Below are positions 11,913 through 40,574 of a stretch of 64,000 bases of DNA, piece by piece. The stretch spans positions 1 to 64,000 of the forward strand of contig JAGOBA010000001.1 in assembly GCA_017983635.1 (NCBI GenBank), read 5' to 3'. The notes under the pieces are model-generated. The model was not told where the DNA came from, did not search any database, and saw nothing but the letters and a program-made list of their open reading frames with translations. How positions within the stretch are numbered: the first letter of the stretch is position 1; every line of letters begins with the position of its first letter. The translations under genes were made by a program, and so were the position numbers. Source of the stretch: Alphaproteobacteria bacterium (GTDB lineage: Bacteria; Pseudomonadota; Alphaproteobacteria; Micropepsales; Micropepsaceae).

Positions 11913-11915
11913 GGT

Positions 11916-20227: not shown

Positions 20228-20582
20228 GGTGGTCCTCCGTCTAATCGCTGCGTTGGGCGTCCGGATTGATCGCAAGTTCCCCACTGGACTCACGGCAACA
20301 ACGTCGATGCCAGGGCACGAAAGATGAGGGGCGGAATGTGGGGCTGCATAGAACGCCAGCCAAGATTACTGAAACGTATCAAGTGGTTAGGAGGCGTGAT
20401 TGGCGGAGCCGGAGCCCGAAGAGGCAGTGTCTGCAACAGTCCGTCGCTGTGCGCACCTGACCAATCGGACGCAGTTTTCCTCATCGGCGAATCCGCTCTC
20501 GCGTTTACACGTCCGCGCCAGTCTCTCACAATCCGACCATGCCGCGTGGGTGAACCCACGCGCGAAAAAGGTAGGAGGATGA
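20228..20582. other. Non-coding junction at the left end of the integrated element
   Basis: No gene can be supported here. The stretch contains the 15-bp copy of the tRNA-Ser 3' end (20400-20414) and the promoter region of the integrase. The integrase start at 20583 follows AGGAGGATGA. Sequence left of 20400 should be host or older accessory DNA, and sequence right of it belongs to the element. Confidence 0.6.
20400..20414. repeat. Left attachment repeat of the tRNA-Ser element
   Basis: TTGGCGGAGCCGGAG is an exact copy of 40560-40574. The right copy is the 3' end of tRNA-Ser(GCT), with its CCA plus one extra base. The flanks diverge within one or two bases on the right. On the left GGCGTG is also shared, offset by one base. 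A 15-mer duplicated once beside an integrase and once at a tRNA 3' end is the expected product of site-specific integration. Confidence 0.88.
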
Positions 20583-21824
20583 ATGGTCCGCCAATTAGAG
20601 AGACTATCGGCGTTGAAGGTTGAACGACTGACCGACGACGGCATGCACGCCGACGGCGGAGGACTCTATCTACAGATCGACGGCGGCGCCAAGAGCTGGA
20701 TTTTCCGCTTTCGGTCGCCGGTCAAAAGGTCAGAGCGCTACATGGGCCTGGGCCGCTACGGGCAGCGCACGGACGAGCTCAACCTTGCTGCAGCGCGCGG
20801 AGCGGCCGAACGTGCGCGCGCACTCTGTCGCCAGGGTATCGACCCGATTGAGCAGAGACGTGGGGCGGAGCATGGAGCTGCGGCGCCTGCCAAGCCGTCG
20901 TTCGGAGAGTTCGCGGACAGCTACATCGAGATCATGCGGCCGTCGTGGCACAACGAGAAGCACGCGGCGCAGTGGGTCTCGACTATGCGCGATCACGCAT
21001 CGTCCATTCGATCGACGCCGGTCGATCAGATCGACACCGACATGGTGCTCAACGTGCTGCGACCCATCTGGGCTGAGGTCCCGGAGACCGCGCGCCGCGT
21101 CCGGTGCCGCATCGAAGCAATACTCGATGCGGCGAAGGCGAAGCAGCACCGCACGGGAGAGAACCCCGCACGCTGGCGCGGGCACCTGCAGCATCTGCTT
21201 CCAAAGCCCAAGCGATTGACGCGTGGGCATCATGCCGCGCTCGACTATCGCGACGCTGGCGACTTCATGGTGCAGCTCCGAGCACAGTCCGGCATCGCGG
21301 CGCGTGCGCTCGAATTCTTGGTGCTGACCTGTACGCGCACTAGCGAGACACTTCTCGCGGAGTGGTCAGAGATCGACATGGAAAGTCACGTCTGGACATT
21401 GCCTCCGGTGCGCACGAAGCAGAAGCGCGAGCAGCGCATCCCGCTCTCCGCTCCCGCGTTGGCGATCGTCCAGGAGATGGCTGCGATCAAGTCCTGCGCC
21501 TTCATTTTCCCAGGGTGGAAGATGGGCGCGCCGTTCTCGAACATGGCGATGGCGAATGTGCTGCAGCGCATGGGGCGCGATAGTGTCACCGTCCACGGCT
21601 TTCGGAGCACCTTCAAGGATTGGTGTTCCGACTGCACCAACCACCCGAACGAAGTGAGCGAGATGGCGCTTGGTCACAAAGTCTCTGACAAGGTCGAAGC
21701 GGCATACCGTCGTGGCGAACTCCTTCAGAAGCGCCGGCAGCTTGCCGAAGATTGGGCTCGCTTCTGTGCGACGCCCTGGACAACGGCGACGGTCATTCCG
21801 ATCGGCGAGCGCCGCTCGATGTAG
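20583..21824 (+). CDS. int: Tyrosine recombinase (P4-type integrase)
   Basis: A 413-residue site-specific recombinase of the P4 integrase family, which inserts and excises the element at tRNA-Ser. The N-terminal DUF4102 arm-binding domain (GGLYLQIDGGAKSWIFRFR) precedes the core-binding and catalytic domains. The full catalytic set is visible: Arg in CTRTSETLL, Lys in RTKQKREQRIPLS, HxxR in HGFRSTF, His in LGHKVSD and Tyr in AAYRRGE. The start ATG is preceded by AGGAGG. It lies 168 bp inside the left attachment repeat, as expected. Confidence 0.95.
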   Translation: MVRQLERLSALKVERLTDDGMHADGGGLYLQIDGGAKSWIFRFRSPVKRSERYMGLGRYGQRTDELNLAAARGAAERARALCRQGIDPIEQRRGAEHGAAAPAKPSFGEFADSYIEIMRPSWHNEKHAAQWVSTMRDHASSIRSTPVDQIDTDMVLNVLRPIWAEVPETARRVRCRIEAILDAAKAKQHRTGENPARWRGHLQHLLPKPKRLTRGHHAALDYRDAGDFMVQLRAQSGIAARALEFLVLTCTRTSETLLAEWSEIDMESHVWTLPPVRTKQKREQRIPLSAPALAIVQEMAAIKSCAFIFPGWKMGAPFSNMAMANVLQRMGRDSVTVHGFRSTFKDWCSDCTNHPNEVSEMALGHKVSDKVEAAYRRGELLQKRRQLAEDWARFCATPWTTATVIPIGERRSM

Positions 21825-21917
21825 CATCGGTGGGGGATAGGCCGGCCAGCCGATAAGCGCGGACACCGCATCGCGCTTCCCCCATTGACCCTCTTGCGGC
21901 GCACTACGGGGTGCAGC

Positions 21918-22811
21918 ATGCGTATACAGCTCTCGAATGACGGCGACGATTGGAACCACTGGAGCGGATGGCACGACGTCAAACGCTTCATCGACACTTG
22001 CGGTCTATATCTATCGCCGGAGCCCGCAGACCACTACGCGCCGGGCGAGCCCAGCAAAGACGCTTTCCGACGCGTCGGGTATCTTCGCTACCGATTGCTC
22101 GACTTTCCGGAGCCGTTTCAGCGCTACTGCAATGAGATGCTCGTATTCGAGCAAACTCCGCCTGCCGAACGAGGGCCTGCACCAACTCACCTCGCCGTTC
22201 TTACGCAGATCGAAGGCGCGAGCGCGGGAGACCATCTGCAGCCGGCGACGCCAGCCGAATACGAGCGACAGCGAGATCGATGGATCAAAGACGCCGACAT
22301 CTTTGCCCGGTACTACTGCGCCGCGTGGAAATTTCTGACGATGCGGATCGTCGCCCAGCTTTCGTGCGGCACCGTCGAGGGGCGCGGAATTCTCGACGGT
22401 ACTCCTCCGGGCAAGTTCGCGGTGAGGGAGCCAATCCCGAAGGAGTGGTGGGATCGGGCCGAGCTGTATGCCAACCCCTCGTGCGCGATCTCTCGCAATC
22501 AGGTCGTGCGCGACTTGGAATTGACGTTTGCCGAACCTTGTTCAGAGGCCGACCTGAACCTTCAATTTGTTCGGTCATCAGAGATCGCATCACCGGTTGG
22601 CGGGACACGGCGCGACGTGATCGATGCGGCGCTAGAAATTGCTCGCACACGTCCCGCGGATCTCAACCCGCGGCATGGGCGGCTGACATTGCTGGCCAGG
22701 CGGCTCAAAAAAGACCAGCGATTCGCCAACCTCGAAGCCGAAACTATTTCCGATTACATCCGTGAGCCAATCGGGAATGAATATGGAGACCGCAGAACTC
22801 CGCGCCGATAG
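21918..22811 (+). CDS. Hypothetical protein of the integrated element
   Basis: About 297 residues, soluble, with no family that I recognise. It is rich in Trp and acidic residues at the N-terminus (DGDDWNHWSGWHDVKRF). The middle (DADIFARYYCAAWKFLTMR) and the end (ARRLKKDQRFANLEAETISD) look helical. The ATG at 21918 is chosen because it follows soon after the integrase and starts cleanly. A start at 21885 is possible, and neither has a strong ribosome site. It lies between the integrase and the AlpA-like gene, where satellites often keep regulators. Confidence 0.6.
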   Translation: MRIQLSNDGDDWNHWSGWHDVKRFIDTCGLYLSPEPADHYAPGEPSKDAFRRVGYLRYRLLDFPEPFQRYCNEMLVFEQTPPAERGPAPTHLAVLTQIEGASAGDHLQPATPAEYERQRDRWIKDADIFARYYCAAWKFLTMRIVAQLSCGTVEGRGILDGTPPGKFAVREPIPKEWWDRAELYANPSCAISRNQVVRDLELTFAEPCSEADLNLQFVRSSEIASPVGGTRRDVIDAALEIARTRPADLNPRHGRLTLLARRLKKDQRFANLEAETISDYIREPIGNEYGDRRTPRR

Positions 22812-22903
22812 CGACGCCTTCGTATTTCCGAAAAATCGGATTTGATTTCCCCGCGGCGACGAACGGACTGTGACGGTCAACGACACGTCACGGAGCCGAA
22901 ACG

Positions 22904-23236
22904 ATGGATAACCGATCACCGCACGACGCCCCACGGAACAAGGGCGCATTGCTAATATCTGCAGCCGCCGCCTCTGCGCCTTCGCCGTCGGTTGCGCTCG
23001 CCGGTCCGACCGATCGAGGATCATCCACACGGTTGACGATGTCTGTGCCTGAGTTCTGCGAGATGGTCGGGATCAGCAAAAGCACGTTCTATCTTGAGGT
23101 ACGAGAGGGTAGGATTCAGCTGCTCAAAGCCGGTGCGAAAACCCTCGTGGCCCGCACCGAACCGGCAAAATACCTTGCTGAAATGGCCGCCGCAGCTGCC
23201 TCGCGCTCACCTCGCCGACGCAAGTCCGCAGCCTGA
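22904..23236 (+). CDS. AlpA/excisionase-like helix-turn-helix protein
   Basis: A 110-residue protein with a low-complexity Ala/Ser/Pro N-terminus. A small winged-helix DNA-binding region follows, containing MSVPEFCEMVGISKSTFYLE and EVREGRIQLLKAGAKTLV. This is the pattern of AlpA/Xis-type proteins (a helix-turn-helix choosing a reading frame of DNA, followed by a wing), which direct excision and activate element genes. It sits between the integrase and the primase, as in P4-like and PICI elements. The basic C-terminus SRSPRRRKSAA may help DNA binding. Confidence 0.75.
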   Translation: MDNRSPHDAPRNKGALLISAAAASAPSPSVALAGPTDRGSSTRLTMSVPEFCEMVGISKSTFYLEVREGRIQLLKAGAKTLVARTEPAKYLAEMAAAAASRSPRRRKSAA

Positions 23237-23407
23237 TTTTCGGCGCTCGCCATGATCGTAAGCGATCGAGGATCATCCGCTGTCTCGCGGGCGTCGACGA
23301 CGCCGATCACTCAGCCCCGAATGCGAAAAAGTCCGCCCGCTCAACACGGACGGCCTCTGATTTTTCGTGACCCGGGCGGCAACCCGGCACCAGCTAAGGA
23401 GGCACTC

Positions 23408-23794
23408 TTGGTATCAACCCCCGATTCGCACTGCAACCCCCTATCGCCTGATCTGACCCAGCGGCTCGCCATCCTAATACCCCGCATGGCCACCAACCAC
23501 GACGGCGAGGTCGTAGCGACCGTCCGCGCGATCGGCCGCATCCTCGCGACCGCCGGTTGCGACTTTCACGACCTCTCCGCCCACGTGGCCGGCGCAATCG
23601 TCTCCGACGTGTCGGTGATGCTCGCAGAGTGCCAGGCCCGTATTGACCTCTTCAACGACAAGGAGGCACGCTTTCTACGGGACGCGGCGGCTCTCATTGC
23701 GGCTGGCCACGAGCTCAGCGACAAGCAGGCTGCCTGGGTCATGGACCTTCACCGGATAGCGGTGACGCGCTGGGACCGCGGGTGCGCGGTATGA
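23408..23794 (+). CDS. Small hypothetical protein upstream of the primase
   Basis: About 128 residues if translation begins at the TTG at 23408, which is preceded by AAGGAGG at a good distance. The frame is open further left to 23252, but that part lacks a ribosome site. The C-terminal half (EARFLRDAAALIAAGHELSD, then KQAAWVMDLHRIAVTRW) is helical and resembles small proteins found before phage primases. Its function is unknown. The stop overlaps the primase start (ATGA), so the two are translated together. Confidence 0.6.
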   Translation: MVSTPDSHCNPLSPDLTQRLAILIPRMATNHDGEVVATVRAIGRILATAGCDFHDLSAHVAGAIVSDVSVMLAECQARIDLFNDKEARFLRDAAALIAAGHELSDKQAAWVMDLHRIAVTRWDRGCAV

Positions 23795-24747
23795 CCGACC
23801 TTAAGTTCCATGACCTGGCGCTCGACCTGGGCAGACGCGCGCCGGAACTGGCCCGCATGCTCCTGGGAGAGCCAACGTCGAGCAACTCTCGGCAGTATCG
23901 TTACCGCGGCAAAGGCTCCCTCTGCATCCTCGTCGCCGGGGCCGAAGCCGGGCACTTCTTCGACCACGACCCACCCGCCGGCAGCAAAGCCCACGGCGAC
24001 GCGATCGACTTGATCGCACACGTCACTGGCTGCTCACTCCGCGAAGCCTACACGCAAGGCATCGAATTTCTGGGAGGTGTGACGAGAGAATCCACACTGC
24101 GGCCAGGTCACGATGGGGAGACACCCCGCGATCGTATTGACCGCGCGCTGAGCTGGTGGACGGAGGGGAAGTCGGCACCCGGCACGATCGTCGAGCGCTA
24201 CCTGCAAGGCCGCGGCATCACCTGCAAAATCACCAGCGACATCAAATTCCACCCCGAACTTTGGAACTCAGAGGCGCAGCGAAAGCTCCCCGCCATGGTG
24301 GCGCTGATGCGAGACATCGGAAACGACGAGGCCTGCGGGATACACCGGACATGGCTCCTGCCCGACGGCTCTGGCAAGGCGAAACTCACAACCCCGAAGA
24401 AAATGTATGGGCGCGCCAAGAACGCGACGATCAAGCTGGCCCCGGATTGGAGCATTACCGAAGGTATCGGCCTCACGGAGGGGATCGAAACTGGCCTCAG
24501 CCTCATCTCGATCGGCTGGGCTGCAGTCTGGGCCGTAGGCTCGGCAGGGGCGATGGCGCGCTTCCCAATCCTGGGTGGCGTCGAAGCGATCACCGTCTTC
24601 GCCGATCACGACAACAAAGCGACTGGGGTCCGCGCCGCCCGGACGTGTGCCAACCGGTGGCAGTCGGCCGGCCGTGAAGCGACGATCCACTATCCCGATG
24701 CGTGCGGCCACGATTGGAACGATGTGCTGAGAGGCATTGCGGCATGA
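23791..24747 (+). CDS. Toprim-domain primase
   Basis: A 318-residue DNA primase-type protein of the phage/plasmid DUF7146-Toprim group. The N-terminal region carries GKGSLCILVAG and a GDAIDLIAHVTGCSLREAY segment, as in CHC2-derived primases that have lost the zinc Cys set. The C-terminus has the Toprim Glu motif LTEGIETGLS, the Asp motif VFADHDNKATG, and a GHDWNDVLRG end. It probably lays primers for replication of the excised element. The ATG overlaps the previous stop by 4 bases, and its own stop overlaps the next start. Confidence 0.87.
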   Translation: MTDLKFHDLALDLGRRAPELARMLLGEPTSSNSRQYRYRGKGSLCILVAGAEAGHFFDHDPPAGSKAHGDAIDLIAHVTGCSLREAYTQGIEFLGGVTRESTLRPGHDGETPRDRIDRALSWWTEGKSAPGTIVERYLQGRGITCKITSDIKFHPELWNSEAQRKLPAMVALMRDIGNDEACGIHRTWLLPDGSGKAKLTTPKKMYGRAKNATIKLAPDWSITEGIGLTEGIETGLSLISIGWAAVWAVGSAGAMARFPILGGVEAITVFADHDNKATGVRAARTCANRWQSAGREATIHYPDACGHDWNDVLRGIAA

Positions 24748-25865
24748 GTACCGCGCCGGAAGATGTCATCCTGAAATTCGGGCGACGCGATCCGAAGATG
24801 TACGGCCGTCTGAAGGTCTTCACGCTTGGAGATGAACAGGCCAAGCTGGCGCGGCCCTATCTGCTCAAGGGGATCATCTACCGTGGCGACCTGATCTTCA
24901 TCACCGGCGATCCCGGGAGCGGCAAGACAACGCTCACACAGTACATCGCCCTTGCGGTGGCGCAGGGTAGATCCATTTTTGGTCGACGCGTAAAAGTCGG
25001 TCGGGTCCTATACCTCGCCTTCGAGGGGAAAGACATCTTCCTTCTCAAAATGAGTGTGCTGGAAAAACGCTTCGGCAGTTCGCGGAACATCATGTACGCG
25101 ACGCAGTCGCTTCAACTTCTGAAGGATGCACCGAACGGGCCCGACGCCAACGAACTGCTCAAGCTCATCAAAGACGAGAAGATCGACCTCGTCGTCTGCG
25201 ACACGTGGAGCAAGATGCTCGCCGGCGCCGACGACAACAAGCATGAAACGGTGAGCGCGCTGATAGGCGTCCTCGATCGAATTCGCGAGGAGGTTGGCGC
25301 CGCGGTCCTAGTGAATGCTCATCCCAGCAAGAGTGACAAGGGTGGTGTTGGCGGGAGCTTCACGGTCCAGAAGGACGCAGACGCGGTGCTCTCGGTCGAG
25401 ATCGCCGACAGCATCAGAACGGTGAACGCGGTCAAACTTCGGTTCGACAAGATCGGCCCCACATTCTCATTCAAGCTAGAGCGGGTGGTTTTGGGCACCG
25501 ACGACGACGGCGACGAGATCACCTCCGTCGACATCCAGGAGGAGTCGAATGACCCGCCCCACGGGGTCTCAAAGCCCACGAAGCTGTCCGCTTTCCAATC
25601 CATTTTCCTGAAGGATTTCGAGAATCACACGGCGATCACACGGCCGGGCCCAAATGACTGGGTTATCCCGAAGGAAGGCATGCCGCGTGTGATCGCCGTG
25701 GGGCGAAAGGAGATGGTTGCGGAACTCCAGAAGAACGGCCGCCTCGAAAGCTCCCCGGGGCAGCCGATGACCTCAAAAGACCGCACAAAACTGCGGGATA
25801 CGTTGGCAGCCCTCGAAAGCAAGGGGCGGCTCTTTTCAACTGACGCATGGATTTGGAAACCGTGA
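24744..25865 (+). CDS. RepA-like AAA ATPase (replicative helicase type)
   Basis: A 373-residue P-loop ATPase of the RSF1010 RepA/phage DnaB-like group. Walker A is ITGDPGSGKTTLTQY, and Walker B lies in IDLVVCDTWSKML. LVNAHPSKSDKGGVGGS is the usual RepA-like sensor segment. With the preceding Toprim primase it forms a two-protein replication module. The start at 24744 overlaps the primase stop (ATGA). The 3' end of the gene contains the first three copies of the ATCACACG repeat described separately, so the candidate origin begins inside this gene. Confidence 0.88.
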   Translation: MSTAPEDVILKFGRRDPKMYGRLKVFTLGDEQAKLARPYLLKGIIYRGDLIFITGDPGSGKTTLTQYIALAVAQGRSIFGRRVKVGRVLYLAFEGKDIFLLKMSVLEKRFGSSRNIMYATQSLQLLKDAPNGPDANELLKLIKDEKIDLVVCDTWSKMLAGADDNKHETVSALIGVLDRIREEVGAAVLVNAHPSKSDKGGVGGSFTVQKDADAVLSVEIADSIRTVNAVKLRFDKIGPTFSFKLERVVLGTDDDGDEITSVDIQEESNDPPHGVSKPTKLSAFQSIFLKDFENHTAITRPGPNDWVIPKEGMPRVIAVGRKEMVAELQKNGRLESSPGQPMTSKDRTKLRDTLAALESKGRLFSTDAWIWKP

Positions 25866-26031: not shown

Positions 26032-26634
26032 ATGGACGACTTCGAAACCTCGAACGCCCTCACCCGGCTGTGGCGCGCAGTGCGCTCGACGATCGGCCGA
26101 GGGCGAATCAAGCTCGTTGACGACACCAAGGCGGTGCAGAAGGCCCAGCTCGTCCTCAGTGCTAACGAGATCGTCGACAACCTGATCCGCGTCGGCGAGT
26201 ACGGGCTCGCATCAAACCCGCCGACGGATAGCGACGCGATCGTGGTCTTCATCGCTGGCGATCGAACGAAGGGCGCGATCGTCGGCACCAACCATCAAGC
26301 ATCGAGGCTCAAAAATCTCCAGCGCGGTGAAGTGGCGATCTTCGATGATCAGGGCCGCTGGATCTGGCTGAAGCGCGGATCAATCGAGATCGACGCGAAG
26401 AACACGCCGGTTGATGTGAAAAACGCGACGGTCATCACCGCGAAGGCGACGACAAAAATCACGCTCGACAGTCCGCTTGTCGAATGCACCGGACAGATCA
26501 CGTCCCAGGGGAGCATCACGTCGCAGGCTACAGTCACGGGCACGACCGACGTCGTCGGCGGGGGGAAAAGTTTGAAGACCCATGTGCATGGCGGCGTCGT
26601 CGCCGGCGGCGCCAATTCGGGACCGCCGGTATGA
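26032..26634 (+). CDS. Phage baseplate assembly protein V (Mu gp45/P2 gpV-like)
   Basis: A 200-residue protein of the gpV/gp45 spike family. An OB-fold region near residues 15-110 is followed by a repetitive beta-helix stretch (NATVITAKATTKITLDSP, then QGSITSQATVTGTTDV). The end, KTHVHGGVVAGG, has the HxH motif that binds iron at the spike tip. Such proteins pierce the host outer membrane at the end of a contractile tail. It is the first gene after the candidate origin, and its stop overlaps the hub gene start. Confidence 0.87.
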   Translation: MDDFETSNALTRLWRAVRSTIGRGRIKLVDDTKAVQKAQLVLSANEIVDNLIRVGEYGLASNPPTDSDAIVVFIAGDRTKGAIVGTNHQASRLKNLQRGEVAIFDDQGRWIWLKRGSIEIDAKNTPVDVKNATVITAKATTKITLDSPLVECTGQITSQGSITSQATVTGTTDVVGGGKSLKTHVHGGVVAGGANSGPPV

Positions 26635-27713
26635 GCGGCGGCGCGCGCAGACCACAAGTGGAGGACGGCGACCTGACGTTGACCGTCAACGGTCGGTCGA
26701 TCGCCGGTTGGACATCGGTTCGCGTGACGCGAGGGGTCGAGCGCTTCCCGAGCAGTTTCCAAATCGAGATGACCGACCGCGATCCCGGGACGCCCGTGAA
26801 CGAAGGCAATAGCTGCGAGGTGAGAATCGGAGGGGACCTTCTCGTGACTGGTTTCATCGATGTCGTCGACCGCGCCTTCGATGAACGCGGCAACGTGGTG
26901 AGCGTCACCGGCCGGTCGAAGAGCCAAGACCTGATCGACTGCTCGGCCGAGTGGCCGACGTGTCAGATCACTTCGTCGACCGCGCTGGCGATCGCGCAGA
27001 AAATCGCGGCCCCGTATGGGATCAAAGTCGCCGGCGTGGGTGATCCCGGCCGCGTCATCCCGACCTTCAATTTCGCCCTGGGCGAGACCGGCGCCGACAT
27101 CATCGAGCGAACGTTGCGCTACACCGGCAAGCTGCTACTCGATAAGCCCGACGGCTCGGTGCTCATCACCGACGTCGGGACGGCGAAGGCGGCCTCCGGC
27201 TTCACCGAAGGTCAGAACATTCAATCGGCGCGGATCACCTCGCGCGTCGATCAGCGCTACTCGGTGTACAAAATCTTTATGGTGGCGATGGACGCCTTCG
27301 AAGATGTCGGCGACGGTGGCAACTTAATCAAAACCGTCAATGACCCGAACGTCAGGCCGCAACGTCTCAAGTACTTCGTCGCTGAGTCAGGCGACAGTTC
27401 GTTCGAAGTCGCGAAGAAGCGGATTCTCTGGGAGGCCGCTCGACGCAAGGGACGGGGACAAACCGTTCGCATCGTGACCGACAGGTGGCGCGACAAGGCC
27501 GGAAAGCTTTGGGAGCCGAACACCCTGGCGCCTGTAAAGATTCCCGCTGTCAAACTGGCGAGCGCAGAGCTGCTGATCGCCGAAGTCACCTACCGGCGCG
27601 ACGCGGAGCGCGGAACCACCGCCGAACTCACATTGATGGCGCCGGATGCGTTCCGACCTGCCCCGATCATTCTCCAGCCGGCGGTCAACCTCACGGAGGT
27701 GAAACGGAACTGA
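26631..27713 (+). CDS. Phage baseplate hub protein (Mu gp44/P2 gpD-like)
   Basis: A 360-residue protein of the phage late-control/tail hub family. It begins with GDLTLTVNGRSIAGWTSVRV. The usual VTGRSKSQDLIDCSAEWPT segment follows near residue 90, and the hub fold runs to about residue 355. It forms the cell-puncturing hub with gpV. The frame is open upstream into gpV; ATG at 26631 overlaps the gpV stop by 4 bases and matches the family start. Gene order gpV then hub is the reverse of Mu, where the hub gene 44 precedes 45. Confidence 0.87.
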   Translation: MSGGARRPQVEDGDLTLTVNGRSIAGWTSVRVTRGVERFPSSFQIEMTDRDPGTPVNEGNSCEVRIGGDLLVTGFIDVVDRAFDERGNVVSVTGRSKSQDLIDCSAEWPTCQITSSTALAIAQKIAAPYGIKVAGVGDPGRVIPTFNFALGETGADIIERTLRYTGKLLLDKPDGSVLITDVGTAKAASGFTEGQNIQSARITSRVDQRYSVYKIFMVAMDAFEDVGDGGNLIKTVNDPNVRPQRLKYFVAESGDSSFEVAKKRILWEAARRKGRGQTVRIVTDRWRDKAGKLWEPNTLAPVKIPAVKLASAELLIAEVTYRRDAERGTTAELTLMAPDAFRPAPIILQPAVNLTEVKRN

Positions 27714-28402
27714 TGGCAATCCAAATCTCAATCAAGACCAACGCGAAAGAGCTTCGCAAATCGCTGTCCGACTTCGCGAAGAAACAGGTGCCGTTCGCTG
27801 TCTCGCAAGCGCTCACTGCCGTCGCGCGAGAGGTCGCCAAAGCCGAGGTCCGCGCGATCGATAAGACGTTCCCGACCGCGACGCCATTCTCGCTTGGCGG
27901 GGTCGGTGTCGCCGGCGCGACCAAGAGCAACCTGATGGCCCGCATTTTCATGCGCGAGATCGCTGCGGCGTACTTCCTGCCGTATCTCCAGGGCGGGCGG
28001 CACGCACTGTTCGGCGGACGGCGATCGATACAGGTCCCGGTCGGCCTGACGACGGACCGCTATGGAAATCTCGGTAAGGGTCGCCTCTCCAAGGTCATCG
28101 GGCGGCCGGATGTTTTCGTCGGCAAGATCACCTTCCGCAAGAGCGGCGAAACCGTTGCCGGTGTCTGGCAGCGGCCGAAGGTCGGCAAGCGGCGCGGCGG
28201 CGGTCACGGAACGAAAGGCAGCACGCGAAATCGGATCGGCGGCGTGTTCACGGGCTTGAAGTTGTTAGCGCGCTTCGAGCAGCCGCAAGAGGTCAAGCAG
28301 CGGCTGCCGTGGGCAGCTACAGCGCAGCGCGTCGTCGAGCAGGTGTGGGCGAGAGAATTTGATAAGGCGCTCGCGAAGGCGATCGCAACGGCACGGCGGT
28401 GA
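27713..28402 (+). CDS. Phage minor tail protein, gpZ-like
   Basis: A 229-residue basic protein. The N-terminus (TNAKELRKSLSDFAKKQVPF, then AVSQALTAVAREV) resembles minor tail protein Z / tail completion proteins, which sit at the head-tail junction end of the tail. The middle is Gly/Arg-rich (KVGKRRGGGHGTKGSTRNR). The start is fixed by a one-base overlap with the hub stop (TGATG). The family assignment rests on the N-terminal pattern only. Confidence 0.6.
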   Translation: MAIQISIKTNAKELRKSLSDFAKKQVPFAVSQALTAVAREVAKAEVRAIDKTFPTATPFSLGGVGVAGATKSNLMARIFMREIAAAYFLPYLQGGRHALFGGRRSIQVPVGLTTDRYGNLGKGRLSKVIGRPDVFVGKITFRKSGETVAGVWQRPKVGKRRGGGHGTKGSTRNRIGGVFTGLKLLARFEQPQEVKQRLPWAATAQRVVEQVWAREFDKALAKAIATARR

Positions 28403-28535: not shown

Positions 28536-29048
28536 GTGGTAGATCGGAACGAGAGAACGATCCTCGGAAAATCGGAGCTGGCGGCGACGCTCGGCTGGGG
28601 GCGTGAGCGTCTCGATCGGCGCATCCATAGCGATCCGGATTTTCCGGTTCTGAAGCGGGCGTCTCAGGGCGCGAAATGGCAGTTCGATCTTGCCGTCGTT
28701 CGCGACTACCTGGCGGAGAACGACGACCAACACGCGGCGGCGCCGGCGGAGCTCACTCCAAGAGCCCGGCGCGAGACCGCCATGGCCATCGCGCTCGAAG
28801 ACAAGAACAGGATCGCACGCGGCGAGCTCGTCGAGCGCCAAGCCCTCCGGACCGCGCTCAGCACGTCCTTCGCGATGCTCGGCAAGAACCTCGACGGCGT
28901 CTGCGAAACGATCGGCCGACGCCTCAGCCTGACCGACGATGAGGTCGAGGTCATTCGATCGCTGATCGGCGAGTGCCGCACGTCATCGGTGGGCGAGCTC
29001 CGAGAGTACTTCAGCCCCGAGGCTCCACTAGCAAAGGACAGTGCATGA
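28536..29048 (+). CDS. Terminase small subunit (Nu1-like)
   Basis: A 170-residue protein. The N-terminal winged-helix (GKSELAATLGWGRERLDRRI, then the wing in LKRASQGAKWQFDLAVVRDY) and acidic/basic helical C-terminal part (LEDKNRIARGELVERQALR) match lambda Nu1/DUF1441-type small terminase subunits, which recognise the packaging site and recruit the large subunit. A GTG at 28536 is the start used. No large terminase gene follows or occurs anywhere in the element, which is unusual for a phage but normal for satellites that redirect a helper's packaging motor. Confidence 0.78.
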   Translation: MVDRNERTILGKSELAATLGWGRERLDRRIHSDPDFPVLKRASQGAKWQFDLAVVRDYLAENDDQHAAAPAELTPRARRETAMAIALEDKNRIARGELVERQALRTALSTSFAMLGKNLDGVCETIGRRLSLTDDEVEVIRSLIGECRTSSVGELREYFSPEAPLAKDSA

Positions 29049-29461: not shown

Positions 29462-29508
29462 TCCAACGCTCCGAGCACGGCCCCCGTCGAGATGGAGGTT
29501 CACTAGAG

Positions 29509-32339: not shown

Positions 32340-33689
32340 ATGTCTTGGACCGACCGCCTGCAGCAAGCCTCCTTCCGCGGCATCCCGTTCGGTGTGCTCG
32401 CCGCCGACACGGCGGTGGGCCGCCGCACGGCGCTCCACGAATACCCCTATCGCGACAAGCCGTGGATCGAGGACATCGGCCGCTCGACGCGGAAGATCAC
32501 GTTCAGGGGCTTCCTGGTCTCGGACAGCAAGGTCTATGGCGGTGGCGATGTCATTGGCCAGCGCGATCGCTTCATCGGCGCCGCGGAGTCACCGGGCGCC
32601 GGCACGCTCGTTCATCCCACGCTTGGACGCCTCACGGTCAACGTCTCGAGCTGCCGCATCGAAGAGAAATTCGACGAGGGAAATTACTTCGAGGTCGGCC
32701 TCGAACTCCTCGAGTCTGGCGAGCGCATTTTCCCAACCGTATCAGGTGCCACCGGCGCCCTCACCGGGATCAGCGCCCTCGGCCTCGACAGCGCGGCCTC
32801 CGCCGACTTCTTGACCCGCGCCGTCGCCGATCTCAAGCTCGGCGCCAGCGTCGTCAACCAGGTCGTCTCGACGGCCACGAAATGGGCGAAGCCCGCGTTG
32901 AGCCTCGTGCGCGACGCGACGAACCTGTCGAGCCTGGCGAGCAACCTTCCCGGGGTGCTCGGCCGGTACTTCGGCGGCGCGAACGTCGGCGGCCTTGGGC
33001 TCCTGGGCTCGACCGGCGAACAGCTCGTCGACGCATCGACCTCGGTCGCCGATCTGATCAAGGCCGGGACCGAGGCCCGCACGCTCGTCCAGACGTCGAT
33101 CGACACCTTCCTCACGCTCGCCGGAGGGAACAAGCCGGCCGAGTTCGCCGCATCCTCGCAAGCCCTCGCCGCCGCCGTCCTCGGCTCCTGCGTCAACCCC
33201 GCCGACGGCGTGCGTCTTCTCGCGCGCCTCGCGGTCTCGCCGACGCCCGATCCGACGACGACCTCGCCCGTCGGCCTCGCGATGGCCGACATTCAGACCG
33301 GCTGCAACGATCTCTTCCGCCGCGCCGCCGCCGCCGCCCTTGCCCGTGCCTCGTCGACCTACCAGCCGTCGAGCTACGACGACGCGGTCCGCGTGCGCGG
33401 GCTCGTGGTCGATGTGCTCGATGCCGAGATCGCGGCCGCCGGCGACCAGGGCGAGGACCGGAGCTTCTCCGCGCTGCGCACGTTGCGGCAGTCGGTGGTC
33501 GACGACATCACAGAACGGGGCGCGACGCTCGCCCCCATCAAGACGTTCAAGCTCCCATCCGCATTGCCCTCGCTGTACCTCGCGAACCGCCTCTATCGCG
33601 ATCCGACGCGGGCAACTCAGATCGAGCTTCAATCGAAAACGAAACATCCCTTGTTCTGCCCGCCGAAATTCCGCGCGTTGGCGAAATAG
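32340..33689 (+). CDS. Phage DNA-circularisation/tail protein (Mu gp43-like)
   Basis: A 449-residue protein with a clear DNA_circ_N domain at the N-terminus: WTDRLQQASFRGIPFGVLA, then GRRTALHEYPYRDKPWIEDI and GRSTRKITFRGFLV. In Mu-like phages this protein is encoded between the tape measure and the hub gene and belongs to the tail baseplate region. The C-terminal part is Ala-rich and helical. Start ATG 32340 lies 12 bases after the coiled-coil gene. Confidence 0.87.
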   Translation: MSWTDRLQQASFRGIPFGVLAADTAVGRRTALHEYPYRDKPWIEDIGRSTRKITFRGFLVSDSKVYGGGDVIGQRDRFIGAAESPGAGTLVHPTLGRLTVNVSSCRIEEKFDEGNYFEVGLELLESGERIFPTVSGATGALTGISALGLDSAASADFLTRAVADLKLGASVVNQVVSTATKWAKPALSLVRDATNLSSLASNLPGVLGRYFGGANVGGLGLLGSTGEQLVDASTSVADLIKAGTEARTLVQTSIDTFLTLAGGNKPAEFAASSQALAAAVLGSCVNPADGVRLLARLAVSPTPDPTTTSPVGLAMADIQTGCNDLFRRAAAAALARASSTYQPSSYDDAVRVRGLVVDVLDAEIAAAGDQGEDRSFSALRTLRQSVVDDITERGATLAPIKTFKLPSALPSLYLANRLYRDPTRATQIELQSKTKHPLFCPPKFRALAK

Positions 33690-33707: not shown

Positions 33708-33995
33708 GTGCCTCAACTCATGAAGACGATCGTGCTCGAAGAGCCGCTCGAATGGAATGGTCAAACGTACACTGAGCTCACGCTGAAGGAGCTCACCGCC
33801 GGTCAGCTGCAAGAAGCTCTCAACGGCGAAACGAAAAACCGTGTCGAGCAAACGATGAAATTCATCTCGCTCTCGACTGGCCTTCCGGCCGTCGCGCTGA
33901 AAGGCTTGCTCGCGCGCGACTACAGCCGGGCTCAGGACTTCATCTTGGATTTTCTATCCGCCCCGCTGGATGGCGGGGCATCGTCGCCGGCATAG
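33708..33995 (+). CDS. Phage tail assembly chaperone (Mu gp41/P2 gpE'-like)
   Basis: A 95-residue protein. EEPLEWNGQTYTELTLKELT and the following GQLQEALNGETKNRVEQTMK match the phage tail assembly chaperones encoded just before the tape measure. The GTG at 33708 follows AAGGAGA; ATG at 33720 is a possible alternative start. The frame ends at TAG 33993-33995. Sequence immediately beyond encodes a GpE-like domain in the -1 frame, as in P2, so a longer frameshifted product is likely. Confidence 0.82.
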   Translation: MPQLMKTIVLEEPLEWNGQTYTELTLKELTAGQLQEALNGETKNRVEQTMKFISLSTGLPAVALKGLLARDYSRAQDFILDFLSAPLDGGASSPA

Positions 33996-34135: not shown

Positions 34136-35335
34136 ATGTCAGCAGGCAAGCAGTTCGCGATCGAGGTCACAGCGAAAGACATGGTCACGCCGGTCATCGG
34201 CAAGGTCGACAAGGCCCTGTCGCGACTCGAAGGCGGCGCATTGAAGCGCACGAACACCGCGCTGGGCGATGTGGCCAACGCGTCCCGGCTCAGCGGTGTC
34301 GAGAAGGGCTTTCGTAGCATCGGCGACAGCGTCATCGGCATCGGCGACGCCTTGCTCGGCCTGATGCCTGGCCTCGGCGCTCTGACGGCCGCCGGCGCCG
34401 GTGCTGGCATCGTCAACCTGGGTGTTCAGTTCGCGAGCACCGGCGCAGAGATCGACCGCTCCGCTCGCCTCTTCGACATTGGCACGGACAAGCTCCAAGA
34501 GCTGCGCGGGGCGATGACACTCGCCGGCGGCGCGGCGTCCGACTTCGACAACGCCTGGGTCGGTCTCTCCGACGCACTCGAGGGCGCCAAGTTCGGCCGC
34601 AACATCCAAGCGGTCATGATGCTCTCGAAGATTGGCCTTCGAGCGCCCGGCCGGAACGAAGCGATCGACCAGGAGAAATACCTCGCGGGCATTGCGCGCG
34701 CGCTGCCCCGATACAACGCCGCGTCGCAACGCATCATCGCGAGCGCGCTCGGTGTGACCAGCGCGCTGCCGTTGCTCAATCAGGGTCCCGATCGGGTCGC
34801 CGCACTTCGAGTGCAAGCGCGGAAATCAAACGTCGTGATGAGCGGCGCCGACATCGCAAGCGGCAAGGCGTCCCAAAGCTCGCTCAGCCGTCTCGGTCTG
34901 GCCGCAAAAGGCGCCGCCAACAAGATCGGCTCCGCGATACCGCTCGGCACCGCCGCCGATGCAATATCGAGCCTTCTTGAGTTCATCGGTGGCGACAGCG
35001 AGAAATTTTCAGCGCTGGCCAATGGCACGGCGCCGAAGGTGTCCAATCGCCCGGTCGTTCCGAAGCCCATGATACCGCGCATTCGGTCGGGACCGGTGAG
35101 CCCGGGGGCTGACGCCGCGAAGCCGTGGTACGAGCAGCGCAGGCTCATCGACACGCCGGCCGACGAGCTCCGCGCGATCGGCCGCAGCAATCCGATTGCG
35201 ATCTCTGACTCGACGAGCACGGTCCGGATCATCCTGGAGGGCGCGCCACGCGGGACGAAAGTGCTTACGGATAGCGCTCGCGGATCCCGCGTGATCGTTC
35301 AGCAGAAGCACTTCATGGAGGGTGACAGCCCTTAG
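34136..35335 (+). CDS. Phage tail tape measure protein, unusually short
   Basis: A 399-residue protein positioned directly after the tail chaperone, as tape-measure proteins always are. The N-terminus FAIEVTAKDMVTPVIGKVDK is the usual coiled start. A hydrophobic Gly/Ala stretch (LLGLMPGLGALTAAGAGAGI) is at about 75-100, and the C-terminus is a globular tail-tip-like region. Tape-measure proteins of contractile tails usually exceed 600 residues; because length sets tail length, this one would specify a short tail. Start ATG 34136 follows a short gap. Confidence 0.78.
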   Translation: MSAGKQFAIEVTAKDMVTPVIGKVDKALSRLEGGALKRTNTALGDVANASRLSGVEKGFRSIGDSVIGIGDALLGLMPGLGALTAAGAGAGIVNLGVQFASTGAEIDRSARLFDIGTDKLQELRGAMTLAGGAASDFDNAWVGLSDALEGAKFGRNIQAVMMLSKIGLRAPGRNEAIDQEKYLAGIARALPRYNAASQRIIASALGVTSALPLLNQGPDRVAALRVQARKSNVVMSGADIASGKASQSSLSRLGLAAKGAANKIGSAIPLGTAADAISSLLEFIGGDSEKFSALANGTAPKVSNRPVVPKPMIPRIRSGPVSPGADAAKPWYEQRRLIDTPADELRAIGRSNPIAISDSTSTVRIILEGAPRGTKVLTDSARGSRVIVQQKHFMEGDSP

Positions 35336-35371: not shown

Positions 35372-36013
35372 GTGCGCAGCGGCGACGGGCCGGGGGTTTT
35401 GTCCTCCCTCCGGCCCGTCACCCATTCTGAGCCTCCCTCTTCCTTTGACGTATTCGAGTCGGGTTTGAACTTGAAAAGGAAGACGCCCTCCCTTCCCGGC
35501 CGCGACGGCAACCCTCTGGCGCTTGAGGTCGCACGTGGCCATGAGCGCACCGGCAAATCTGAAGCGGTCGTTCGGAACCTTCGCGAGCACCCGATCGATA
35601 CTCTCCTCGAGCGCGGCACGATCGAAGCGCACCATCACCAAGCAGCCGAACGATTCATGGGTGATTGGCAGCTTGCCCAAGTAGGCTCCCCGCGGTCGAT
35701 GCCCCTAGAGGCCCGCGTCGATGGCGCCCGCGGTGGTGATCTCACGGAAAGCCAAGCCGACGCGATCGGTCGACTCAAGCGAACGCTCAACTACCTCGGG
35801 CCGGTCGATAAGCTGATCGTCACCGCGCTTGTCGTCGATCGCGCCAACCTGACGACGATCGGCGCCCTCATGTATGAGCGCGGGTTTCGTTGGCCGGAGA
35901 AGCGCTATGCCGGACCACGGCTTTGCGAAGCGCTTGACGTGTTGGCGCAGTGCTATGGACTGGCGACTCGCCCTGCAGCTGCTCGCCCGGTCCAGGACCG
36001 CCCGCCGGTGTGA
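35372..36013 (+). CDS. DUF6456-like protein
   Basis: About 213 residues. The central and C-terminal parts (DTLLERGTIEAHHHQAAERF, MYERGFRWPEKRYAGPRLCE, then ALDVLAQCYGL) resemble the alphaproteobacterial DUF6456 pattern, which ends in a similar helix. The start is uncertain. GTG at 35372 lies inside a strong hairpin and is doubtful; TTG at 35465 would remove the unconserved N-terminus. The function is unknown; the family has been linked to regulatory proteins, but I have no specific evidence here. Confidence 0.5.
   Translation: MRSGDGPGVLSSLRPVTHSEPPSSFDVFESGLNLKRKTPSLPGRDGNPLALEVARGHERTGKSEAVVRNLREHPIDTLLERGTIEAHHHQAAERFMGDWQLAQVGSPRSMPLEARVDGARGGDLTESQADAIGRLKRTLNYLGPVDKLIVTALVVDRANLTTIGALMYERGFRWPEKRYAGPRLCEALDVLAQCYGLATRPAAARPVQDRPPV
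35381..35422. other. Inverted repeat after the tape-measure gene
   Basis: GACGGGCCGG (35384-35393) and CCGGCCCGTC (35410-35419) form a perfect 10-bp stem, extended to 13 bp with one G-U wobble, around a 16-base loop. No clear T run follows. It may be a weak terminator for the morphogenesis genes or an RNA structure. Confidence 0.5.
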
Positions 36014-36521: not shown

Positions 36522-36530
36522 GGGTGCCGC

Positions 36531-37499
36531 TTGCCACCTGTTCCGTACACCAAGCCATTCGTCAATGTCGTCGGTCAGCTAGAGTTGCTGAAGTCGCGAG
36601 GCATGGTTGTCTCAGATGAAGCACTTGCACGCGAATGCCTCGAACGCGTTGGATACTACCGCTTGAGCGGCTACTGGTATCCGTTCCGCGCGTCCCGAAC
36701 AGCCATTGTGGGTGGCAGAGAGGTCCGATGTATTGAAGACACTTTTCGGCCTGGAACGGAGTTTCGCCATGCGATGGAGTTGTACGTTTTTGACAAGCAA
36801 CTCCGCATGCTGTTCCTCGATGCGATTGAGCGGATCGAGGTCGCAATTCGGGTAGACATCGCCCTCCTACTAGGGCAGCGAAACCCGATCGCCCATCGAA
36901 GTGCGGATCAGCTTCACGGCAATTTCACTCGACTGAGCACGCGCACTGGCAAGGTGGGACACGCAGATTGGCTGCGGCGGCTAGATGATCAGATGGCGCG
37001 ATCAAAGGATGATTTTGTCGCTCATTTCAAGCGAACGTACTCCACGCCGTTGCCAATCTGGATTGCCATTGAACTTTGGGATTTTGGGATGCTCGCAACG
37101 TTCTTCGCGGGAATGAAATTCCTCGATCGGACATTGATCGCTCAGAAATATGGTCTGCGGTACGAGGTGCTGGAGAGCTGGCTCTACACTCTAAACCACA
37201 TCCGAAATATCTGCGCCCACCACAGCCGTCTCTGGAATCGTACGCTGTGGGCGCAACCGAAATGGACGAAGAACGGGGAAGTTCCAAGCCTCGATCATCT
37301 CGTAGGCGATACGCAGCGGCAAAGTCGCATGTATGCGGCCGCCGCGATATCCCAGTTCCTGTTGGGCACTGTGAATCCGCAAACGCAGTGGTCGTCGCGA
37401 TTCCGCAATCATGTCGCAACTCTACCCGTCGCCCCGGGGGTGTCTGTTTCTCAGATGGGAATTCCGGCAAATTGGACCAGCCTCGCACTGTGGACGTAG
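36531..37499 (+). CDS. Abi family protein (Abi_2, AbiD/AbiF-like)
   Basis: A 322-residue abortive-infection protein of the Abi_2 family. The segments FVNVVGQLELLKSRGMVVSD, RVGYYRLSGYWYPFR and FDKQLRMLFLDAIERIEVAI are typical. The conserved RNICAHHSRLWNR gives the HEPN-like Arg-x4-His. Such proteins stop phage growth by killing or arresting the infected cell. The TTG at 36531 is the start that fits; no ATG lies nearby. It is cargo of the integrated element and is read in the same direction as the SRAP gene 6 bases downstream. Confidence 0.85.
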   Translation: MPPVPYTKPFVNVVGQLELLKSRGMVVSDEALARECLERVGYYRLSGYWYPFRASRTAIVGGREVRCIEDTFRPGTEFRHAMELYVFDKQLRMLFLDAIERIEVAIRVDIALLLGQRNPIAHRSADQLHGNFTRLSTRTGKVGHADWLRRLDDQMARSKDDFVAHFKRTYSTPLPIWIAIELWDFGMLATFFAGMKFLDRTLIAQKYGLRYEVLESWLYTLNHIRNICAHHSRLWNRTLWAQPKWTKNGEVPSLDHLVGDTQRQSRMYAAAAISQFLLGTVNPQTQWSSRFRNHVATLPVAPGVSVSQMGIPANWTSLALWT

Positions 37500-37505
37500 T
37501 GACAA

Positions 37506-38186
37506 ATGTGCGGCCGCTTCACCCAGACCTTCACCTATGCCGAGCTGCACGCCTACTTCGACTTCTTCGGCAAACCGCTCGCCGTGCCACCGACGAACCT
37601 CGAACCGAAGTGGCATGTCCGACCGACGGACTCGATTTGGGTCGTGACGCACGGGGATGACGGCTTCAAACTTGAGCACATGCGCTGGGGCCTCGCGCCG
37701 TTCTGGTGGAAGAAGCCGCTCAAGGAACTCCCCGCGACGTTCAACGCGCGCGCCGAAACGGTCGATACGAAGCCGATGTTCCGGGAGGCCTTCAAGCGCC
37801 GGCGGTGCCTCATCCCAGCGTCGGGCTATTACGAGTGGCAGGACACGCCGACTGGCAAGCAGCCTTGGTTCTTCTCGCCCGCGTCGGCGCCGCTCTTCCT
37901 GATCGCCGCCCTCTGGGAAACGAGGAAAGACCCCGAGCCGCCGGGCGACACCGTTCGATCGACGACGATGATCATCACTGAGCCGAACGCCTTCACTGCC
38001 CGCTATCACGATCGTATGCCGGTTCTGCTCGATCGGGGCGACGTTCTGCCATGGCTCACGGAAGGCGGCGCGGGCCTGTTGCGGCCGGCGCCCGATGAGG
38101 TGATGCGCGTTTGGCCGGTGGCCCGCACGGTGAATTCGTCGAAGGCGCCGGACAGCCCGGAGCTTGTCCGCCCGATCGAGCTCTAG
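37506..38186 (+). CDS. SRAP-family DNA-protein crosslink protein (YedK/HMCES-like)
   Basis: A 226-residue SOS response-associated peptidase-family protein that covalently traps abasic sites in single-stranded DNA. The catalytic Cys2 (MCGRFTQ), Asn80 (FNARAET), Glu110 (SGYYEWQ) and His168 (YHDRMPV) are all present. The initiator Met must be removed to expose Cys2. It lies 6 bases after the Abi gene, so both are probably cotranscribed. SRAP genes are frequent in phages and islands, possibly to protect their replicating single strands. Confidence 0.93.
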   Translation: MCGRFTQTFTYAELHAYFDFFGKPLAVPPTNLEPKWHVRPTDSIWVVTHGDDGFKLEHMRWGLAPFWWKKPLKELPATFNARAETVDTKPMFREAFKRRRCLIPASGYYEWQDTPTGKQPWFFSPASAPLFLIAALWETRKDPEPPGDTVRSTTMIITEPNAFTARYHDRMPVLLDRGDVLPWLTEGGAGLLRPAPDEVMRVWPVARTVNSSKAPDSPELVRPIEL

Positions 38187-38588: not shown

Positions 38589-38930
38589 TCAAGCCTTGCG
38601 GATGATCCGCTCATCCTGCGACCAACGATTCCTAAGCCCGTCAAAGTGCACAAGCGGCATCACCGGCGGTTGCGCGAAGTGCTCGCTGTCGTCGTCAGGC
38701 TCATGGCCGTCGTGCTCGTCCTCGCGGTCATCGGTAGAGCCGGTTGCCCACCGCCGCTGATCGTACTGCGCGGGATCGATCCCGAGAGGGCTCAAGGTGC
38801 TACCGACGCACGACCGTGATCCGAGCGAGGGCTCAAGGTCAGCATCCCCGTCTAACTGGTCGAGCAGGGCTATCGCTCGCTCGATCGCCGCTTCCAAGCG
38901 ATCGCGAAGAGATTTGCGGCGCTTGCTCAT
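38589..38930 (-). CDS. Acidic hypothetical protein
   Basis: 113 residues: a short basic helix at the start (SKRRKSLRDRLEAAIERAIA), then an acidic and low-complexity middle (DDREDEHDGHEPDDDSE). The start at 38930 overlaps the stop of the upstream gene by 4 bases, so it is translated with it. The function is unknown. Confidence 0.55.
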   Translation of the reverse strand: MSKRRKSLRDRLEAAIERAIALLDQLDGDADLEPSLGSRSCVGSTLSPLGIDPAQYDQRRWATGSTDDREDEHDGHEPDDDSEHFAQPPVMPLVHFDGLRNRWSQDERIIRKA

Positions 38931-39574
38931 GGCGTCACCGATGGGCAAGCAAACGCCTCATCGAGTGCATCCTTGGCCTCCTCCGCAAGGTGCGCGATCG
39001 TGGCAACCGCATCGTGCAAGTAGGCGCCTTTCGCGACGTCGCCGAACTCGATCCCTTGCCTGAGCGTTTCCGAGGAGGCCGCGACGAATGTCACACGCGA
39101 TGCCATCCGATCGAAGGCTTCGAGATTTTCGATACGGGTCCCGTTCACGGCACGCCGGTCGTTTGCATCGTCACCGCGGGCGTCGATCGCCGCCACGTCC
39201 TTGCATAAGCTTTCGAGCAGCGCGGCCGCACGGCGATCGTCGGGCATCTCGTGATCGAGCAGCGCGCCTTCGCCGAACTTGCCATCGCCGAACCCGCCGC
39301 CGTGGCCGTTCCTGTCGGTCAAGAGCGTCAGCAGGATGCGCAGCTTCTCGCCCAGCTCGCGTGGTGTGCGCGCCGGCGAACCTGTGAACGTTTCAAGCGC
39401 GCGGTTGTTAGCGTCAATTCGCCGGTTAGTCTCGGCATCGGTCTTCCCGCCCTCAAGCGCGTCACAGAGCGTGTGCTCGTACGCCTGAAGCGCGTCGGCG
39501 AAGCGAGGCAGTGTGGTGGCGTCTTCGTTCGGCGATACGGGCGCACGCGGCGCCGTGGTCGATTTCTTCGGCAT
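38927..39574 (-). CDS. Hypothetical protein of the leftward cluster
   Basis: 215 residues, mostly helical and acidic. It contains LPRFADALQAYEHTLCDALE and, at the end, DAVATIAHLAEEAKDALDEA. A Gly/His-rich turn RNGHGGGFGDGKFGEG lies in the middle. I recognise no family. Its stop overlaps the downstream start. It appears to be the second gene of a leftward operon that starts at the operator near 40240. Confidence 0.55.
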   Translation of the reverse strand: MPKKSTTAPRAPVSPNEDATTLPRFADALQAYEHTLCDALEGGKTDAETNRRIDANNRALETFTGSPARTPRELGEKLRILLTLLTDRNGHGGGFGDGKFGEGALLDHEMPDDRRAAALLESLCKDVAAIDARGDDANDRRAVNGTRIENLEAFDRMASRVTFVAASSETLRQGIEFGDVAKGAYLHDAVATIAHLAEEAKDALDEAFACPSVTP

Positions 39575-39656
39575 GTTCGGTGTGTCCTTCGGTGATCGTT
39601 GGGTTGGGGCTCGCCGGCGTATCCCTTCCGCCGGCGAGCTCTGCGATGGGCACGGC

Positions 39657-40133: not shown

Positions 40134-40220
40134 TGGGTTCTCCAGTGTTTGGGGTAGGCCTCGCTCGTTGGTTCAAGCATCGGGCGGGGCCGCATCGCAT
40201 GTTGCAATGCGTCGCCAATC

Positions 40221-40259
40221 TACCTACAATGTCGGAACACGTCAACGACATTGTAGGTA
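40221..40259. promoter_or_regulatory. Operator: perfect 14-bp inverted repeat in the divergent control region
   Basis: TACCTACAATGTCG (40221-40234) and CGACATTGTAGGTA (40246-40259) are perfect inverted copies separated by 11 bases. The repeat lies between the leftward gene starting at 40133 and the RHH gene starting at 40267. On the minus strand TTGACG (40240-40245) and TAGATT, 17 bases apart, form a plausible promoter overlapped by the left arm. Binding would therefore repress leftward transcription. RHH proteins usually bind such symmetric sites, so the neighbouring small protein is the likely ligand. Confidence 0.8.
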
Positions 40260-40266
40260 AAACGAC

Positions 40267-40428
40267 ATGCCAAAAACGCCATCGCTCGGTGTACGCCTCG
40301 ACGCAACGGTGAAGACCGCGTTGGAGAAGGCTGCGAAGGACGACCTTCGGTCACTGTCGTCGCTCGTCGAGAAGGTGCTGACGGAATGGCTTCGCGAGCA
40401 CGGCTATCTGCCGAAGCCGAAGAAGTGA
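40267..40428 (+). CDS. Small ribbon-helix-helix-type DNA-binding protein
   Basis: A 53-residue protein: a short beta strand SLGVRLDATVKTALEKAAKD, then DDLRSLSSLVEKVLTEWLRE as the second helix. This is the ribbon-helix-helix pattern (strand, helix, Gly/Ser turn, helix) of Arc/MetJ-type repressors. The gene starts 8 bases after the inverted repeat at 40221-40259, which fits autoregulation. It may be the element's master repressor. Confidence 0.75.
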   Translation: MPKTPSLGVRLDATVKTALEKAAKDDLRSLSSLVEKVLTEWLREHGYLPKPKK

Positions 40429-40559
40429 GACCGGCGCCGGCTGCGACATATCCACAGCAGTTCGACACCCGACACTTTCAGAGGCGCGTGGGTTCGATCG
40501 TGGGCGAGATCGTTTTGTTCTGTTTGAAACCGCTAACTTCTGCGATTTTTTGCGGCGTG

Positions 40560-40574
40560 TTGGCGGAGCCGGAG
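40560..40574. repeat. Right attachment repeat, within the tRNA-Ser 3' end
   Basis: TTGGCGGAGCCGGAG is identical to 20400-20414. On the minus strand it covers the last 14 bases of tRNA-Ser(GCT), including CCA, plus one base. The tRNA stays intact on this side, and the duplicated fragment is on the far side of the element. Confidence 0.88.

Follow-up and report, generated by a model that had tools for sequence, protein, structure and literature searches.

INTRODUCTION

Several described phage satellites encode part of a virion and take the rest from a helper phage. The PLEs of Vibrio cholerae come closest to the case considered here: PLE11 encodes a tape measure, its chaperone, and a tail hub, and yields chimeric tails 10 nm shorter than those of ICP1, with the satellite's tape measure and hub present in the particle (PMC12987554, published in 2026). 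The cf-PICIs, in the account of Alqurainy 2023 given in PMC10690885, encode the capsid, portal, protease, and both terminase subunits and obtain tails from the helper. In SaPIs, a motif shared with the helper scaffold allows CpmB and, by prediction, Rcm to take its place (PMC12409344). Satellites in general have been delimited as elements of 7 to 20 kb, with an integrase between repeats and with regulatory and replication modules, the strict wording barring viral structural genes (PMC13376191). Here, we describe an integrase-borne element of 20,160 bp, inserted at a tRNA-Ser(GCT) gene in a 64,000-nucleotide stretch (the window; positions 1 to 64,000 of contig JAGOBA010000001.1, assembly GCA_017983635.1) from an alphaproteobacterium of the family Micropepsaceae.

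We regard this element as a helper-dependent phage satellite, a reading that we hold to be probable by a good measure. It is favored because an integrase and exact repeats at a tRNA accompany a satellite-type replication module; because nearly full-length tail-initiator genes and a lambda D-type decoration gene are present, yet shell, motor, and tube genes are absent; because the gene order is scrambled on one strand, while a truly decayed prophage of this group keeps the canonical order; because six further elements share the plan from integrase to hub without head shell genes; and because experimental precedents exist in the chimeric tails of PLE11 and in the competition with helper scaffold ascribed to CpmB and Rcm.

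RESULTS

The preliminary description of this stretch had proposed that an integrase-borne element lies between two repeats, with tRNA-Ser as its target, and this proposal is well supported. The 15-mer TTGGCGGAGCCGGAG is present in two exact copies, at 20400-20414 and 40560-40574, that extend no further in either direction; from base composition, 0.00017 exact direct matches to it are expected by chance within the window. ARAGORN, in concordance with Rfam, assigns the minus strand of 40561-40654 to tRNA-Ser(gct), and the right copy of the repeat consists of the 3' end of this tRNA, encoded CCA included, with one further base. The integrase frame begins 168 bp past the left copy, exceeds the Pfam cutoffs for Arm-DNA-bind_3, Phage_int_M, and Phage_integrase, and retains every catalytic residue (R in TRTSE, residues 251 to 255; HGFR, an HxxR motif, from 338; GHK from 364; and Y in AAYRR, from 373). 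Both the integrase family and the tRNA 3'-end repeats are those of a tRNA-integrated element with a P4-type tyrosine integrase. Counted with one copy of the repeat, the element measures 20,160 bp; about 88% of it is coding, and its G+C content is 63.0%, versus 61.8% in the flanks. Integrase and tRNA lie at opposite ends, the same layout as in one of the elements presented below (L066). A circular form joined through the 15-mer is a fair prediction from this arrangement.

It had also been anticipated that a relative lacking the element would show a single repeat copy at an empty site. This is borne out in part. In the related genome G008, the stop codon of a TonB-receptor gene is joined directly to the tRNA with one repeat copy (TAA followed by TTGGCGGAGCCGGAGGG); the window orthologue of that gene lies at 3177-5486, and G008 thus lacks 5487-40559 at this site. 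No relative with both flanks was found, and hence no strict empty site. No genus member has, at this site, an equivalent of the 2.9 kb to the left of the element (17.5 to 20.4 kb), and no second repeat copy was seen beside the tRNA in the examined stretches of other genus members. The G008 site is consistent with the repeat being the crossover point, although it is not a strict empty site.

The features of the element and its target, in order along the window, are the following.

20400-20414, no strand: left direct repeat (att core copy), exact 15-mer
20583-21824, plus: tyrosine integrase, P4-type (Arm-DNA-bind_3; Pfam, catalytic residues)
21885-22811, plus: 308-aa frame, no Pfam, PHROG, or PADLOC match
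22904-23236, plus: AlpA/Cox-like helix-turn-helix regulator or excisionase (HTH_17 1.7e-4, below cutoff; PHROG 575, Cox-like, 1e-4)
23252-23794, plus: 180-aa frame, no Pfam or PHROG match
23782-24747, plus: DUF7146/Toprim primase (Pfam 2e-29 and 3.5e-18; PHROG 510 8e-43)
24702-25865, plus: AAA_25 (RepA-like) replication ATPase (Pfam 2.1e-31)
26032-26634, plus: Mu gp45-type baseplate spike (Pfam Mu_Gp45 3.6e-19, spike, Apex motif)
26631-27713, plus: Mu gp44/GpP-type tail hub, 360 aa (three Pfam domains; PHROG 177 1.9e-103)
27713-28402, plus: minor tail protein Z/tail completion (PHROG 1924 1e-43)
28536-29048, plus: small terminase subunit, TerS (PHROG 57 1e-15)
28973-29461, plus: frame, start probably 29045, no significant match
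29500-29964, plus: frame, no match
30007-30219, plus: small frame
30219-30632, plus: scaffold-like protein (capsid-scaffold motif W[DN]xA[MF]x[KR] twice; profile E 0.41)
30657-31274, plus: lambda D-type head decoration protein, D (Pfam HDPD 1.5e-14)
31302-32327, plus: coiled-coil protein, long helical hairpin (AlphaFold model, mean pLDDT 70)
32340-33689, plus: Mu gp43-type (DNA_circ_N) baseplate hub protein (Pfam 5.6e-29; PHROG 184 1.9e-78)
33708-33995, plus: tail assembly chaperone, Mu gp41/E type (Pfam Phage_TAC_7 2.4e-14)
34136-35335, plus: short tape measure protein, 399 aa (PHROG 2276 1.9e-16 over residues 5 to 268)
35372-36013, plus: DUF6456 protein (Pfam 4.4e-8)
36531-37499, plus: AbiD/Abi_2 abortive-infection protein, putative cargo (Pfam 5e-54; PADLOC AbiD 1e-62)
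37506-38186, plus: SRAP (HMCES/YedK type) protein, putative cargo (Pfam 3.6e-57)
38927-39574, minus: frame, no match in PADLOC or among phage proteins
39657-40133, minus: frame, no match in PADLOC
40267-40428, plus: small frame, ribbon-helix-helix-like by eye
40560-40574, no strand: right direct repeat, tRNA 3' end, exact 15-mer
40561-40654, minus: tRNA-Ser(GCT), target (ARAGORN)

Searched with 1569 proteins that represent about 73 phage loci, the element showed no gene for a capsid, portal, protease, large terminase, tube, or sheath, and no remnants of lost phage genes; the only matches were its integrase, primase, spike, hub, D, gp43, chaperone, tape measure, and SRAP genes. Virion genes essential to a phage are absent, hence a helper would be needed, as in a satellite. 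The frames are intact. Apart from the tape measure, the genes of the tail initiator, like D, come close to the full length of their phage homologues. At 399 aa, the tape measure is the shortest of 121 (the other 120 span 423 to 806 aa, with a median of 625) and is without the C-terminal half. Since no homology to phage proteins lies between the end of the tape measure match, near 35134, and the SRAP gene, the protein looks short rather than freshly broken.

The order of these genes also departs from that of phages. Complete phages present gp43-hub-spike in 125 of 126 cases, the tape measure before gp43 in all 110, and D before the hub in all 41. The element, on a single strand, has spike-hub-Z-TerS-scaffold-D-coil-gp43-chaperone-tape measure, which violates all three orders. 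What real decay looks like in this group is given by L256 (G257:C1:346500-366000), a Mu-tailed prophage in a 2-Mb genome with a split gp43 and no spike that nevertheless keeps the canonical order; this locus (L244/L256), considered as a further satellite, was rejected on these grounds. Neither the collinear remnant nor the broken genes of a decayed prophage are found in the element.

A hub-profile search returned 79 genome loci, five of which are without canonical neighbors and lie within integrase-borne islands; a sixth such element (L171) came from IMG/VR. All six share the integrase-to-hub plan of the window element, and no capsid shell gene was recognized in their called frames. Their boundaries were set by direct-repeat searches alone. 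Three contain relatives of the scaffold, four TerS or Z, and two tape measures. The five genomic elements are organized as follows.

L131: integrase, AlpA, AAA_25, coil, scaffold-like, hub, TerS; tRNA-Met, 14-bp repeat, 8.9 kb
L066: two integrases, primase, helicase, hub, Z; tRNA-Glu, 36-bp repeat, 12.2 kb
L081 (Azospirillum endophyticum): integrase, AlpA, DnaB, coil, Z, TerS, tape measure, hub
L082 (Burkholderia sp. WAC0059): integrase, two scaffold-like, coil, tape measure, hub; 18-bp repeat, 15.7 kb
L106 (Paraburkholderia caledonica): coil, scaffold-like, hub; tRNA-Pro, 28-bp repeat, 24.2 kb

In L066 (449-12624), a single pair of 36-bp repeats at tRNA-Glu encloses two integrase genes (at 659 and 6886), an arrangement suggestive of a fusion of two elements. 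In L085 (375-2300), a hub gene neighbors a SRAP gene on the opposite strand, close to the end of a contig from a Rhodospirillales metagenome-assembled genome; this may be another such element, cut by the contig.

In a tree of 98 hubs, the seven element hubs fall in seven places, requiring seven changes for seven elements. Although the bootstrap had not fully converged, the well-supported branches force at least six origins, and the tree indicates that the hubs were captured separately, at least six times. The hub of the Azospirillum element has that of an Azospirillum phage as its sister (77% identity), the hubs of the two Burkholderiaceae elements group with Burkholderiaceae phages, and the tape measures of L081 and L082 are close to those of particular phages (58% to L216 and 51% to L190, respectively). 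Because element hubs and tape measures group with particular phages in this way, the phylogeny points to repeated acquisition of both from phages, visibly from those of the element's own host group in three cases. The host genomes of the other elements contain one such hub each and thus lack a resident helper with a hub of this type. Across 385 genomes from the class to which the window belongs, hubs besides that of the window are in canonical order or in the decayed L256.

The gene directly preceding D in complete relatives encodes a PHROG 6382 protein, akin to the C-terminal part of head maturation proteases, and one branch of these proteins terminates in W[DN]xA[MF]x[KR]. In 388,798 residues of phage proteins, this motif occurs six times, always in the gene preceding D. 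The window protein encoded at 30219-30632, directly before D, contains it twice; motif and position make it a probable capsid scaffold. Homology to the scaffold is significant by profile in L106, L131, and L082 (E values from 3e-22 to 9e-11). As for the coiled-coil protein, its AlphaFold model shows a long N-terminal helical hairpin at high confidence, and a fold search gave no informative structural match. Five other elements have a coiled-coil gene directly before, or at most two genes from, the hub or tape measure (four genes in L081). Homology between the window protein and these coils is not detectable; those of L131, L171, and L082 are related to one another.

DISCUSSION

Our analysis suggests that a satellite can carry the parts from which a phage head and tail are started, leaving the bulk of the virion to the helper. 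The sequence supports integration at tRNA-Ser by the element's own integrase, and the element encodes a replication ATPase and a primase of its own. Upon infection by a phage with a Mu-type contractile tail and a lambda-D-type head, the element would excise and replicate, and TerS would steer the helper large terminase to satellite DNA. The scaffold-like protein, in the absence of a protease, may compete for the helper capsid protein, with the decoration protein also supplied by the element. The tail initiator (spike, hub, gp43, chaperone, and short tape measure) would then seed helper tube, sheath, baseplate, and fibers. Such assembly would yield a chimeric particle whose tail is shortened, to about 60 nm versus 95 nm if each tape measure residue accounts for 0.15 nm, and whose head is possibly smaller. 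AbiD and SRAP are interpreted as cargo.

The likeness to PLE11 and the other PLEs lies in an integrated satellite with its own tape measure, chaperone, and baseplate hub, which takes tube, sheath, and fibers from the helper. Finding this same trio in the window element supports similar functioning, not membership in the family. It adds the spike, gp43, Z, TerS, the decoration protein, and a probable scaffold, of the Mu-tail/lambda-D-head type, and, as judged from gene families, it is apparently unrelated to PLEs. The cf-PICIs are likewise satellites with a partial virion set, some with putative tape measures (Extended Data Fig. 10, PMC12987554), but the window element has almost the reverse set, with no head shell and none of the capsid, portal, and protease genes or paired terminases that define them. 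A small scaffold mimic without a protease recalls the SaPI/PICI elements with CpmB or Rcm (PMC12409344), although no tail hub or tape measure is known in SaPI/PICI, and the scaffold motif in the window belongs to the group of phages decorated with D. P4-like satellites share the P4-type integrase, the AlpA-like regulator, the tRNA target, and replication genes, but Pfam and PHROG scans recognized no P4 alpha, Sid, or Psu in the element, which has tail proteins instead. Many SaPI/PICI also carry their own TerS. Finally, complete temperate phages with Mu-type tails and D-type heads (L064, L065, L068, and Serratia phage BZS1) have homologous spike, hub, gp43, chaperone, tape measure, and D proteins, and differ in their full gene set and canonical order. 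The simplest reading by analogy is that the window element would combine a PLE11-like tail strategy with a CpmB-like scaffold strategy, directed at a Mu-tailed, D-decorated phage.

Some observations weigh against a satellite. Hub, spike, tape measure, and D exceed the strict definition without viral structural genes (PMC13376191), a rule that PLEs and cf-PICIs also break; the general criteria of that definition are those seen here, 20.16 kb being at the upper edge. Excision, induction, and particles are predictions, and the scaffold profile score of the 30219-30632 protein (E 0.41) is not significant by itself. No related gp43 or hub occurs elsewhere in the same genome, and only weak ones were found in 96 family genomes; among 11 genus genomes, the gp43 gene of the element is found only in the window's own. 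Queries with the tape measure, AAA ATPase, coiled coil, gp43, and D, IMG/VR included, returned no close relative of the element, and its upkeep by selection is consequently judged from intact frames only.

The alternative that best survives, although we consider it unlikely, is an inert, decayed prophage with a Mu-type tail and lambda-type head, from which the genes for capsid, motor, and tube have been lost. Every structural gene of the element does have homologues in complete phages, the tape measure is without its C-terminal half, and both helper and mobility are predictions. Against it, the order is scrambled on one strand, unlike that in 110 to 125 complete phages and in the decayed L256, the frames are intact and densely coding with no lost-gene remnants, and there are satellite-type replication genes and six parallel elements with the same theme. 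Much less probable still is an immobile, integrase-borne island whose phage genes block superinfection beside AbiD, for instance, with the hub and tape measure poisoning incoming tails. AbiD would suit such a role, and a PLE element does encode tail genes of its own together with a blocker of tail assembly (PMC12987554), but pure tail poisoning leaves TerS, D, and the probable scaffold without a clear role, and the replication module and att sites imply mobility. A tailocin island, that is, one encoding a tail-like killing particle, could account for hub, spike, and tape measure but was rejected as hardly credible, since tube, sheath, and fibers were not recognized and TerS, D, integrase, and primase would be out of place; a gene transfer agent was rejected because head shell genes are absent.

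Taking the element as a satellite, the idea of a satellite bringing its own tail starter is already known from PLE11 and the tape-measure-bearing cf-PICIs; what is new is the wider starter set and a different tail type. In the literature, we found no paper describing a satellite that carries a Mu-type hub, spike, or gp43, subscription papers being largely outside the search. More broadly, and with slightly less than even confidence, we tentatively propose a class of satellites outside the PLEs and cf-PICIs that would redirect how Mu-type phages assemble head and tail through starters only (tail hub complex, tape measure, scaffold, and TerS), the hub having been acquired on at least six separate occasions from phages that share the host group, making an own hub a general convergent strategy. 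Chimeric tails have been reported for a single satellite family, the PLEs, in 2026, and elements of the window type are apparently unrelated to it. Independent hub captures suggest that satellites commonly swap the nucleus on which a phage tail grows. The reasons for having an own hub and tape measure thereby become testable, among them helper specificity, tail length, and escape from tail-targeting defense. Prophage finders that label such islands as remnants may hide satellites.

Surroundings of the element

The same genome contains a further phage-like region with a large terminase (L231; G000:C14:46000-65900). As its sole large-terminase match, contig C14 was considered as a source of the helper and rejected, no Mu-type tail genes being apparent there by eye.

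The 15 kb between the TonB gene and the element (5487-20399) encode a cbb3 oxidase operon, a ferritin-like (AcsF-type) protein, and a PAS protein, and are absent at this site in G008 and in another related genome, G005; this segment may reflect an earlier, separate insertion at that tRNA, or else a rearrangement there. Since G005 has a different 3.3-kb stretch at this tRNA-Ser site (L016:2374-5713), the site may be an insertion hot spot. Within the left flank, a stretch of about 480 bp (17500-17980) belongs to a repeat family, with whole or partial copies at about 12 further positions of this genome and weak matches in G003 and G006.

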